NCBI GenBank assembly: GCA_034044135.1 | Contig: CP139021.1 | Location: 3,673,635 to 3,737,634 of the forward strand | Origin: Flammeovirgaceae bacterium SG7u.111 | Lineage (GTDB): Bacteria; Bacteroidota; Bacteroidia; Cytophagales; Flammeovirgaceae | Length of the DNA stretch: 64,000 nt | Direction of reading: 5' to 3' | Shown: one piece after another, positions 326-27,499 of the stretch | Layout: the number at the start of each line of letters is the position of its first letter | How positions within the stretch are numbered: the first letter of the stretch is position 1 | Position numbers and translations under genes: made by a program | The notes under the pieces: generated by a model | What the model was told of the DNA's origin: nothing | Seen by the model: only the letters and a program-made list of their open reading frames with translations | Databases searched by the model: none

Positions 326-573
326 AAGAACCTAAGTTCCGCAATGTCAGTTGGTGTATCGGGGGGAGATACCGGGTCGTAGCCCGGCATGACTCGGTTT
401 TTTCTTGGGATGATACTGGTTTGGGGTTGCCCCGTCGGGGTCGTTTTAGACCGCCCCCGACGTTCGCTTATCGACCTTTCTTTCGCCGAACGTCAGGAGG
501 CGTCTGAAACGACTCCGACGTATGTGCCGCTCCGAAAAAAGGGCTCAACCGCTCGGCTCTGTCGAGTGGAAAC
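196..573. repeat. 25-nt exact direct repeat pair
   Basis: An identical 25-nt sequence occurs at 196-220 and 549-573. It contains the core CTCGGCTCTGTCGAG, whose CTCG/CGAG ends can pair. The second copy lies inside the GC-rich repeat block that precedes the 21-bp array. This suggests that the dispersed palindromic sequence begins well left of 326. Confidence 0.8.
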
Positions 574-770
574 CTCTCCCTCCTACTATTCAATCTCACA
601 TTGCTCCTCAAAAGGAAAGCTCTATAATGACTTCTGTCCTATGCATAAGGCTTGCAGTGTCCTTTTTCTTCTTTCATTAGCGACACAATTTGTGTCAACT
701 TTTTTCGGGATGCCTTAGAAGCTATTTGGAAATATATCTTCAAAATTCTTATGTGCTTATTTCCTCATCA
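326..770. repeat. GC-rich palindromic repeat block, copy 1
   Basis: This block is related, with indels, to 26784-27132. The strongest shared parts are GTTCCGCAATG (336-346), CCCCGTCGGGGTCGTTTT (430-447) and the GGAGGCGTCTGAAACG region around 496-513. Several dyads are visible: CGTCGGGG (433-440) pairs with CCCCGACG (455-462), and an ACCGGG/CCCGG palindrome lies near 372-394. Open frames across it differ between copies and have no domain. It resembles dispersed REP-like palindromic elements; no transposase is attached. Confidence 0.7.
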
Positions 771-1134
771 GATCTAAAACTTACAAACCCAAAACAACTA
801 CATATTACTGCCGGACGACTACTTTTTGGTGCCAAACAAGGACTTTTTAATGCCGGAGAAAGAGATATTTCTTCTGAAATATGAAAAATCAAAGACGATA
901 TATGAAATATTTGTGCCGATGAACGTCTTATTTTTCCCGAAATATGAAAAATCAAAGCCGTTATTAGACTTACGAAAGACGATATACTCAATATTTTTTC
1001 CTTTTTGCTCCTTTTTATTGCCTTTTTTCTTCTTTTCTGAGCCGTATGAAGGGTTATTTGCCCTTGCGGGTACATTTTTGGGTTCTTGGCAAGGGTAAAT
1101 TCTAAATTTTGTGAATTTTATTAAAATGGCACGT
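771..1134. repeat. Degenerate 21-bp tandem array, copy 1
   Basis: Cut into consecutive 21-mers from 771, the sequence lines up as about 17 units without a single register shift. Good units start GAnATATGA, continue with an ACTTATTT-like block and end TGCC (for example 834, 897, 918, 939). Units 1-10 are clearest; later ones fade into T-rich sequence but keep the GCC or CC end. The block aligns without gaps to 27133-27496. Both strands stay open over much of it because 21 is a multiple of three, so the translations are artificial-looking heptad peptides. Confidence 0.85.
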
Positions 1135-1316
1135 GGGTATTATGGGGTATTTAGGCAGTTAAATCCTTTGCCCAAATGAAATCAGTAGTTCAACAGAGTA
1201 AATCTGATGAACCGATTTATAGTTTACCTGTTCGGTTTTAGCTTAAACTATTCTTGTCATTGATTCTTTCTCCACTTAATGTATCATAATAAGCCTTCCC
1301 TCACTATCTCTCCTTC

Positions 1317-3587
1317 TCAATTGATAAAAGCGATCTTGGCTACGTGTGTTTCTTGCCCGTCTTCAGAAGCACTGTAGACCAGATAGATGCCTGTTTGCGC
1401 ACGTTGGCCGTTGTAGTTTGCCCCGTTCCAGGTAGCAGTGCCTCCCGCAGCTTGTGTTTGCCAAATAAGCTTGCCCGCAATATCGGTGATCTTGACCGTA
1501 GCGTTGTAGCTCAAGCCCGAAATACTAATCAAGCCCCCAAAACTTGGCAGCACAGGATTGGGGAATACCTTTACATTGCTATGCTCGTAGGTAGCCGAAG
1601 TAGCCGTTCCTCGGTATGAGATAATCCCCTTATCAGTAGCGAAAAAGACCTCTCCTGTTAAGGGATTTGTTTCAATATCTATGATGGTATTGGAGAGCAG
1701 CGGGCTGTTGTCTTCGTCGAAAAAGGAAATGAGCTCCGAGCCGTCGTCACTGAAGAGCCATGCACCGTTGAGCGTGCCTATCCACTTGCGGTTGCCACCG
1801 TCTACTTCCATAGCGGTTACCTTTTCCCCTTCCAGCAGCCTCCTGCCCTCGTAGCGGGGAATGGTCGCATCGCCCGAAGAGGAATCGAACACTCCGCCGG
1901 GGTTAAAGAACTCCGCAACGCCATCATCGGTCCCCACCCAGATGCTTCCGTTGATATCTTTGGCAAAGGCATTCACATTCCCATTGGGCAAGTTCCCAAA
2001 GCCCGACCCTTCTGTTAGGTAGCGGCTTTTATCCAAGTCCTCGTTGAAGACGAAAAGTCCCCCACCCCTCGCCGGGCTCACAATAGACCAAACAGAACTA
2101 AAATCATCAACCAAAACCTCCAGTGGAAAGCGGGAAAGCGTGGCATCGAAGGCAAAAGAGTCCCATGTTCCATCTGCATTGAGTCTATGGAAAGATGGCG
2201 AGCCTTCTGGAACGTTGTAGTTGGCAAACCAGAGGTCGCCTACATTCCCCACGTTCATTCCCGAAACAAATTTATTTCCTTGGAAGTCCGAAACTATGGG
2301 GGAATTGGGAACGGAGGAGACAGTATTGTCTTCTTGGTTCCAGCTAAGCAAGCCGTCACCAAAACTTGCTAAATATACTAGCCCATCAGAGAAGTTGATC
2401 TTGCTGGCTACCAAATCTGACGTTTGGGGAATAGGGGTCGCTCCAATAAAATTTGGTTGCGAAGTAAAATTCTCCCATGTCCCATCTTCATCAAAAACAT
2501 AATAACCAGAAAAATTCCCAGAGGGCACCATGTCTTCGTCATATCCTCCCGACAGCGCCATCACCTTCGTGCGGAAAAAGTTCAATTTGAAAACGGAAGG
2601 GTCAAAAGTGCCAGAAGGCGTATATTTTTCAACTACCCCTTCTGAAACCTTTAACAAACCACGCTCTTGGTCGGCTACCCAAAGGTTTCCCGAGGCATCG
2701 GGGAAGGCATCGAAAGGAGCTGGCCAATCATCTGCTTTCAGCTCATCTACCTGTTCGCTTTTATCTATCAAAAATACCTCTTCTCCTGTTGAAAGAAACA
2801 ACTCTTCTGCATTTGAAGTCAAGCTTTTGTACATTTTTCCTGAAGCGATGCTTGTATTGGAAACCGTTCCACTTACATAGCTATACAATCCATCGTTTTC
2901 TTGGGTGAAATAGCATTTCCCATCAAAAAAAGAAGCGTGTTGAATCTCGTTAGCGCTCTGGGCAACCACCCGCCAGTTTGTATAATCTTTGAGATTTACA
3001 TCTTCCGATAAAGAACCAACCATTAGCCCATGATCGGCTGCTATGAAAATACTGTCTGCACCAAATGTAGTAGAGAGTACCTCAATTTCAGCACCCTCTG
3101 GGCCTATGTTGTTATAAGTATCTTTGATGCGGTAAGTAGCCAAGTCAAGGATAACTACCCCAAAGCCCGTGGAGAAATAGCCGTATTTCCCATTGATGCT
3201 GAGGTGATGAATTGTTTTATCATCAAAATCACTATTGAGAATGGATCGGACGTTGACAATGCCTTCTTCGTTCATCAAATCGATGTTGCCATTTTGATAG
3301 CCGATCACCAAAGTTTTCAGTGTTTCCGAATATCCCAGCGCAGCTACTTGCGAATCGCTCAACCCATCCACTTTAGAGAGTACATTCAAACTATTATCTT
3401 CCTGATCTAAAAAGAATAGAGAATTTCCAGAGGCACAATACACTTTATTGTCGCCCATGGTCAGTTTTGAACCTTTGTGGTACGTTAGGTGTACCCGCCA
3501 ACTACCCACAGGGATATTCGACTGGGCAAACACTTGGAGGGAAGTTCCAATGAACAAACTGAGTATGATGGCCTGAATGAATTTCAT
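1317..3587 (-). CDS. porZ: Type IX secretion system protein PorZ
   Basis: A 756-residue exported protein. The first ~21 residues form a signal peptide ending VFAQ. The N-terminal half has the two-component-regulator-like beta-propeller repeats of PorZ: a GSWRVHLTYH start, then KVDGLSDSQVAALGYS and GNGNIDLM-like stretches near residues 70-110, and a later run of IWVGTDDGVA-type blades. Residues ~675-756 are a T9SS type A sorting domain (VFPNPV ... GIYLVY ... KIAFIN). In characterised systems PorZ sits on the cell surface with the attachment complex that loads anionic lipopolysaccharide onto T9SS cargo. It is transcribed alone here. Confusion with a generic sorting-domain propeller is possible, but the N-terminus fits PorZ well. 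Confidence 0.82.
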   Translation of the reverse strand: MKFIQAIILSLFIGTSLQVFAQSNIPVGSWRVHLTYHKGSKLTMGDNKVYCASGNSLFFLDQEDNSLNVLSKVDGLSDSQVAALGYSETLKTLVIGYQNGNIDLMNEEGIVNVRSILNSDFDDKTIHHLSINGKYGYFSTGFGVVILDLATYRIKDTYNNIGPEGAEIEVLSTTFGADSIFIAADHGLMVGSLSEDVNLKDYTNWRVVAQSANEIQHASFFDGKCYFTQENDGLYSYVSGTVSNTSIASGKMYKSLTSNAEELFLSTGEEVFLIDKSEQVDELKADDWPAPFDAFPDASGNLWVADQERGLLKVSEGVVEKYTPSGTFDPSVFKLNFFRTKVMALSGGYDEDMVPSGNFSGYYVFDEDGTWENFTSQPNFIGATPIPQTSDLVASKINFSDGLVYLASFGDGLLSWNQEDNTVSSVPNSPIVSDFQGNKFVSGMNVGNVGDLWFANYNVPEGSPSFHRLNADGTWDSFAFDATLSRFPLEVLVDDFSSVWSIVSPARGGGLFVFNEDLDKSRYLTEGSGFGNLPNGNVNAFAKDINGSIWVGTDDGVAEFFNPGGVFDSSSGDATIPRYEGRRLLEGEKVTAMEVDGGNRKWIGTLNGAWLFSDDGSELISFFDEDNSPLLSNTIIDIETNPLTGEVFFATDKGIISYRGTATSATYEHSNVKVFPNPVLPSFGGLISISGLSYNATVKITDIAGKLIWQTQAAGGTATWNGANYNGQRAQTGIYLVYSASEDGQETHVAKIAFIN

Positions 3588-22645: not shown

Positions 22646-22916
22646 ATGAAAGGAATGCTATTATTAGGTATTGTAGCCACTCCACCATGCAAAACACCCC
22701 ACCAAAGGATCTTCTGTTTTACAGACAATGTAAAGAATAATACGAATGATGCAACGGCGAATTTGCTTGATGCAAAGGAATAAATGGATAATGTAAAGGG
22801 ATAAATGCTATATGTAAAGCATTTTTGGCATAAATATTATAGAAAACTTGGTAATGCAACGCAAAAAACACCCTGTGCAAAGGGTTATATGCATGATGTA
22901 AAGGAGACCACCAAAC
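22646..22916. repeat. Degenerate 21-bp tandem array of a different unit sequence
   Basis: The motif ATGYAAAGG recurs with exact 21-bp spacing: ATG or its equivalent at 22728, 22749, 22770, 22791, 22812, 22854, 22875 and 22896, with a decayed unit at 22833. Weaker matches at 22646 and 22687 are 41 bases apart. The best units continue RATAAATG. The unit sequence is unrelated to the arrays at 771 and 27133, but the period is the same. The minus-strand frame reads as heptads containing PLH and has no sign of being a real protein. Confidence 0.85.
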
Positions 22917-23550
22917 TATCTTTTGTTTCAACAGTATATACAGAAGGATATTGAAGTTGTAAAGGAATAGGTTGATTTGGAAGCAAGTTTTTTGTTGTTA
23001 GCAAGCTCTTTTTTACTAAAAACAACACTTTTCCCAACATATCTTACCCAATATTGCTGTGCTGATCTCCCCTATTGGAAATGCTATACATACTTTAGAT
23101 CAAGCTTCCTGCTTTATACACCCCCATCTTGTGACAATGCAAAACCGTTCGTTTGAAAGCAATTTGGTACATATGTATAGATGTTGTGAAATAAAGATGG
23201 TGATGTATTGCTTGAGCATCTCTTTTTGGAGGATTTGAAAAATGCTTGAGAGAAAGTGGATGGTAACAATTACCCTATTATGATATTATGAAGACCGTTG
23301 ATACTTTGTTTGTGACAGAAGAGAGCGTTTTATATGTTGATAGAGTGTTTGTCCGTTAGTATTGGATAAAGAAAGAATATAGCCTAAAGAAAATGGGCTA
23401 TCGCAAGATTTATAATCCATGTTTAACCAAAATAACTTAAAAACTAGTAGTACTGTTTAGCAGTTGCACATCATAGGGTTTCCAAATTACAAATTTTGAA
23501 AAGCCGAGGTTTGAAAATCAACGTAATAACATATTCAAAAGACAAAAATC
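22917..23550. other. Gene-free spacer
   Basis: AT-rich spacer with no credible gene. A late TTGTAAAGGAATAGG near 22957 is a possible off-register relic of the 21-bp array. A small hairpin ATAGCC/GGCTAT lies near 23379-23401. Nothing else was recognised. Confidence 0.5.
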
Positions 23551-26783: not shown

Positions 26784-27132
26784 GAAAAGGAAAGTTCCGC
26801 AATGCCTATTGGTGTATAGGATGGAGATCCTGCAACTAGCCGTCCGCATCAAGTGCAGGATGACACTGATTTTATCCCCGTCGGGGTCGTTTTCGATCGC
26901 CCCCGACGCTAGCTTATCTATCTTCCTATCGCCCAAAACGTCAGGAGGCGTCTGAAACGGCTCCGACGTGTGTTTCGCTCCGAAAACCGCAACACCTCAT
27001 CCCTCACGAGTCATGTCGCGCTTGATGCGGTATCCTCCTCCTACTATTCCGCAATGCTACGACTCGGGTTTTTGTTTGATGCTTGGGTAGGATGACACTG
27101 GTGTGAGGTTGGTTTTAGTTATTTTCCAATCA
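26784..27132. repeat. GC-rich palindromic repeat block, copy 2
   Basis: Counterpart of 326-770, shorter and with indels. Shared anchors are GTTCCGCAATG (26794-26804), CCCCGTCGGGGTCGTTTT (26876-26893) and GGAGGCGTCTGAAACG (~26944-26959). It also contains ATCCTGCA/TGCAGGAT palindromes (26827-26862), the kind seen in dispersed REP-like elements. It ends where the 21-bp array begins. No coding capacity is evident. Confidence 0.7.
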
Positions 27133-27496
27133 GATCTAAAACTTACAAGCCCAAAACAAGGACTTATTACTGCCGGACAACTACTTTTTGGTGCAAAACA
27201 AAGACTTATTTGTGCCGGAGAAAGAGATATTTCTTCTGAAATATGAAATATCCAAGCCGATATATGAAATATTTGTGCCGATGAACGTCTTATTTTTCCC
27301 GAAATATGAAAATTCCAAGCCGTTATTAAACTTACGAAAGACAACCTACTCGATATTTTTTCCTTTTTGCCTCTTATTTATACCTTTTTTCTTCTTTTCT
27401 GAACCGTATGAAGGTTTATTTGCCCTCGCGGGTACATTTTTGGGTTTGCGGCAAGGGGAAATTCTGAATTTTGCGGATTTTATTGAAATGGTACGT
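27133..27496. repeat. Degenerate 21-bp tandem array, copy 2
   Basis: This aligns base for base, without any gap, to 771-1134. By hand count there are about 37 substitutions in 357 aligned positions (~90% identity), while neighbouring units within one array are far less alike. The block was therefore duplicated whole, not regrown unit by unit. Units beginning at 27217, 27259 and 27280 are identical between copies. The array stops four bases from the crtY stop codon. Confidence 0.85.
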
Positions 27497-27499
27497 GCC

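Follow-up and report, generated by a model that had tools for sequence, protein, structure and literature searches.

The STRR and LTRR families of cyanobacteria consist of near-identical tandem units of 7 bp (STRR) or ~37 bp (LTRR). At plasmid replication origins, iterons occur in small numbers, differ little from one another and lie beside a rep gene, and CRISPR loci consist of near-identical repeats of ~24-40 bp with unique spacers of similar length. Here we describe an intergenic array in a 64,000-nucleotide stretch of the genome of Flammeovirgaceae bacterium SG7u.111 (contig CP139021.1, positions 3,673,635 to 3,737,634 of the forward strand; hereafter the window), together with further arrays of the same period, 21 bp, which corresponds to two helical turns of DNA. 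These arrays resemble STRR and LTRR in being intergenic, tandem, present at many loci per genome and lineage-restricted, but their units are 21 bp long, highly degenerate and locus-specific, and as such they are members of neither family. They resemble iterons in that the direct repeats measure about two turns of the helix, a spacing at which iterons are phased for their binding protein, but each array has 12-20 degenerate units, the arrays are spread over many chromosomal sites, and no rep gene was seen. No replication initiator was recognised among the listed flanking ORFs, of which the three neighbours in the window were searched against Pfam (PorZ, peptidase M1 and lycopene cyclase). With CRISPR the arrays share regular repeat spacing, but the unit is far too short and there is no conserved repeat alternating with unique spacers; the 21-bp units adjoin one another and have ~54% identity along the whole array, in agreement with the original prediction that the locus is not a CRISPR. 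Intergenic repeats in bacteria are usually identified through a common sequence, whereas here the common property is the step, found in two families of one order. The STAR elements of staphylococci have one sequence across loci, in contrast to the 21-bp arrays, which have only the step in common. Like the present arrays, STAR elements are direct repeats interspersed between genes, with no function assigned (PMC3532100). Among open papers we found no description of arrays of this form.

Periodicity, extent and surroundings of the array

Array A1, delimited by lag-21 identity, profile alignment and scan score, occupies window positions 751-1063 (no strand assigned) and consists of ~15 degenerate tandem 21-bp units, such as GATATATGAAATATTTGTGCC and GAAATATGAAAAATCAAAGCC. 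It had been predicted as seventeen consecutive 21-mers from position 771, to be checked by autocorrelation against shuffled controls. Over 771-1134 the lag-21 identity was 0.469 (z = 8.1), a strong peak reached in 0/2000 dinucleotide-preserving shuffles, and the next best lags were 63, 42, 84 and 105. Alignment of 751-1063 to a circular profile with gaps permitted gave 14.9 units with zero gaps, which bears out the predicted absence of register loss, and the three-lag scan described below gave z = 13.6. The units do differ widely, as had been noted, with a mean identity of 0.54 between neighbours, and it is because they are only ~54% identical that A1 is not called as a 21-bp repeat by Tandem Repeats Finder. 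The periodicity was thus upheld but the count of seventeen was not, as the final three or four of those units are aperiodic: lag-21 z is 1.6 for 1001-1134 alone, and local lag-21 identity reaches the background level past ~1040-1060. Lag 7 gives a weak signal in A1 (z 3.3) and almost none in most of the other arrays.

Array and aperiodic 3' tail together form a dispersed element of ~365 bp (768-1137, + strand), present in the genome in three indel-free copies of 86-90% identity, at window 768-1137, window ~27130-27498 and G000:C1:4386250-4386568 (array A3, added by sequence search). The second copy carries array A2 (27112-27425, + strand), with 15 units of period 21, 89-90% identical to A1 without gaps, a scan z of 14.1 and a gapless profile span. 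Upstream sequence is partly common to copies 2 and 3 and is missing from copy 1. There, the left half of a MITE (714-762, + strand), which is not part of the array, is truncated where the array element starts; full copies of this MITE, of 164-192 bp (TTAGAAGCTGTTTGGAAATATATC... CCCAAACAGCTTCTAA), occur in many copies, including in stretches L004, L005, L007 and L008, and no right half was found near A1. A dispersed repeat rich in GC (CCCCGTCGGGGTCGTTTT...CCCCCGACG...GGAGGCGTCTGAAACG) is located upstream of A1 (window 428-545) and of A2 (26875-26985). Another MITE-like repeat, with AGAGCATGTTTAAATTTTACCTATTTCGC at its ends, occurs in stretches L138, L141, L145, L147 and L149 and also in the same-family genome G003. 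A 32-bp tail match repeated genome-wide proved to be a second MITE, which lies outside the array. A 12-bp inverted repeat (765-776/1199-1210) was likewise discarded as a signal, as ~0.6 such repeats per region of this kind are expected by chance. A1 is flanked by convergent genes, a + strand gene upstream that ends before the window start (L001:1-636) and a - strand gene downstream (1317-3587) with a Pfam match to the PorZ N-terminal propeller.

A class of 21-bp arrays in the genome

The window and 100 stretches of 20 kb from the same genome (2.06 Mb, ~27% of the genome), mostly on a regular grid with a handful positioned at PadR loci or at arrays already known, were scanned in 210-bp windows for every period p from 10 to 63, scored as identity at p, 2p and 3p. 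A period of exactly 21 was found for all eight degenerate non-coding arrays at z>=7.5 and for 9/14 at z>=5.5. A shuffled control of twice the sequence (4.1 Mb) gave four matches, with a maximum z of 5.8 and none at period 21, and periodic coding stretches had many different periods, as expected. Array B (window 22716-22969, no strand assigned; scan z 6.5), of ~12 units like ATGTAAAGGGATAAATGCTAT, lies between divergent genes; its three best lags are 21, 42 and 63, and it has one gap near its right edge. The scan also gave arrays C (G000:C1 about 4005341-4005639), D (4088673-4088967), E (1706409-1706861), F (2608259-2608607), G (359214-359501) and I (7319488-7319741), to which sequence search added array H (3062491-3062747) and two matches resembling F (990599-990784 and 2863672-2863741). 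The genome contains at least a dozen 21-bp arrays, and extrapolation from the grid stretches suggests that the total may be ~20.

Unit profiles were compared across all phases and both strands. Similarity was found between A1 and D, among E, F and G, and weakly between F and I, while B and C matched nothing, so that the genome has at least four unit groups (A/D; E/F/G, with I weakly; B; C) whose profiles are not significantly similar to one another. The 21-bp step is therefore the only thing that these groups have in common. Within the second group, recognisable units such as TATTACATGA occur in conserved order across E, F and G. In A1, D, E, G and I lag 63 exceeds lag 42, a higher-order three-unit repeat.

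Conservation of spacing and helical phase

Across 12 arrays comprising ~178 units, gap-permitting alignment left every array core gapless, the only gaps being peripheral ones in B, I and Q, a count somewhat biased in that detection at lag 21 favours arrays in phase. The cores are free of indels even though the units have diverged to ~40-60% identity. In the homologous pairs A1-A2, A1-A3 and G-H there are 0 gaps in ~103 substitutions (141 including A2-A3), and in a small control, MITE copies of this genome have accumulated 25 gap events over 304 substitutions (~one per 12), many of these being one 14-bp event that recurs across pairs. The status of 21 bp as the defining quantity of the array, part of the original prediction, is as such strongly supported, the exact step being common to unrelated unit sequences with indel-free cores.

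The information content of the units has excess power at 10.5 bp against permuted columns (p = 0.001 for 11 arrays; 0.039 for six independent arrays), as expected if conserved columns cluster at contacts on one helix face, and also a 7-bp component (p = 0.0035 and 0.005, respectively). Coding stretches of period 21 have neither excess. Curvature predicted from wedge values does not generally exceed that of shuffles: A1 has z = -0.7, C, E, F and Q are near 0, and B, D, G and R are curved, with z of -2.6 to -3.7.

Arrays in other genomes and databases

In G021, a genome from another family of the same order, 400 kb contained two clear arrays, Q (z 22; units like CTATGTACACATTCAGCAAGC, with more Q-like stretches elsewhere in G021) and R (z 9.9), which represent two further unit sequences beyond the groups of the source genome. 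A third period-21 match in G021 had z 6.3, and one non-coding match there had a period of 33 (z 8.3). No 21-bp array was found in 400 kb of the same-family genome G003, and the nearest genomes contained no nucleotide relatives of A1 beyond matches of 27-38 bp; on the sequences sampled, the arrays are thus not conserved across the family. There was no match to the array among 50,697 phage and 72,556 plasmid records. Two exact unit-pattern matches in viral contigs were set aside, as no array is present there.

Interpretation of the arrays

We consider the arrays to be best read as helically phased DNA sites, 21 bp apart, which would form a putative platform where a DNA-binding protein, or a filament of protein, could occupy many sites; judged from sequence, we give this reading a probability of roughly 0.4, ahead of its main rival, a neutral satellite. 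A fixed two-turn step, heavy substitution and unrelated unit sequences are together most simply accounted for if a cooperative protein reads one face of the helix. Such a protein would bind cooperatively along the row of sites, selection would keep the 21-bp spacing exact, and different arrays may have different partners or specificities. Possible purposes include nucleoid organisation, gene regulation, or service as a mobile element's own binding region. The original prediction had offered a cooperative-binding scaffold or a bending element. Phasing at 21 bp, with the clustering at 10.5 bp, is consistent with the scaffold, whose binding role stays putative; bending finds no support in the predicted curvature of A1 and is not general across the arrays. 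The lack of palindromy in the A1 units counts against a binding platform, as does the absence of conservation across the family. The lack of a fixed gene context, which is convergent for A1 and A2 and divergent or tandem for others, also counts against it.

The main rival is a neutral or selfish satellite, in which an unknown mechanism duplicating DNA in fixed steps of 21 bp, such as slippage or a strand transfer that covers two turns of the helix, would be followed by decay through substitution and by genome-wide copying, with no binding function. This is quite possible, if less probable than the binding platform: the step is constant while unit sequences vary between arrays and species, the 63-bp higher-order repeats inside some arrays resemble a duplication history, dispersed copies are present, and other sampled lineages have no arrays. 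The best counter-evidence is that units at ~40-60% identity have no core indels, set against the rate of gaps in MITE copies, and unit order is kept among the related arrays E, F and G. Alternatively, the array might be the binding region of a mobile element, with iteron-like or transposase sites, and the ~365-bp element a non-autonomous copy of it; the three dispersed copies have different flanks, and the left edge of copy 1 adjoins half a MITE. We regard this as unlikely, since no terminal inverted repeat or target duplication was recognised, the phage and plasmid records gave no match, and 12-20 units of several unrelated sequences are unlike iterons.

Explanations at the level of RNA or protein appear less probable again. 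Short repeated motifs could titrate a small RNA, and several arrays precede genes by 100-300 bp, so that the arrays might be non-coding RNAs, either structured or acting as sponges with repeated target sites. This is improbable, as folding on either strand is no better than that of shuffles (z positive for A1, about 0 to -1.5 for others), Rfam gave no matches at E<=1, and a sponge would have no need of exact 21-bp spacing. That A1 is a protein gene or gene remnant with a seven-residue repeat, which the equivalence of 21 bp to seven codons and the presence of one + frame open in all three copies might suggest, we consider slightly more improbable still. Substitutions between copies have no synonymous bias in any frame (12/38, 4/31), arrays C, E, F, G and H carry at least two stops in every frame, the corresponding frame of a relative in stretch L038 contains TAG and TAA, three-base indels, which a reading frame would tolerate, are absent, and there is no Pfam match. 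Two open frames in A1 are accordingly judged spurious, one of 106 codons (778-1098, + strand), with neither synonymous bias nor Pfam match, and one of 108 aa (749-1075, - strand), which is interrupted in copies 2 and 3 and also has no Pfam match. A test of 3-bp power for codon periodicity was of little power, coding controls being negative too. The original prediction that this is not a coding repeat is in agreement with these data.

If a protein does keep the arrays in phase, they would belong to a chromosome-wide DNA-binding system that is invisible to sequence searches, and would be ready baits for the binder. If there is no such protein, they would indicate an unknown duplication mechanism whose step is fixed at 21 bp. 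A broader proposal, which we think rather unlikely, is that some Cytophagales have a class of chromosomal scaffold defined by geometry instead of sequence, with 12-20 degenerate sites exactly two turns apart, a motif particular to each array family and a putative filament-forming or repeat-domain binder of shifting specificity.

Proximity to PadR genes

Arrays D, E and F have a PadR gene within about 2 kb, followed by FtsX/MacB-type permeases. We rejected a link to this gene pair, as 9/12 PadR genes in the genome have no array, L191, the closest relative of one of the loci, has both genes but no array, and no 21-bp array was found at 79 named loci of other genomes picked by their PadR gene (nearly all Bacteroidota, 1.43 Mb). 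We put the proximity down to chance where intergenic regions are long. The source genome (G000) has 56 PF12704 and 12 PF03551 matches, a large expansion of FtsX/MacB-type permeases, many of them behind PadR regulators. The titles of contigs L191 and L252 are Thalassovita sp. and Unicellular cyanobacterium SU3; their PadR genes are of Cytophagales type, and the records look mislabelled or contaminated. The only repeats found at the 79 loci have periods of 14 bp (or 7 bp) and 10 bp. Non-coding tandem repeats of 14 or 7 bp occur in the Bacteroidota-type contigs L206, L240, L241, L252 and L258, and a non-coding 10-bp tandem repeat occurs in Dyadobacter fermentans (L215:15487-16194).
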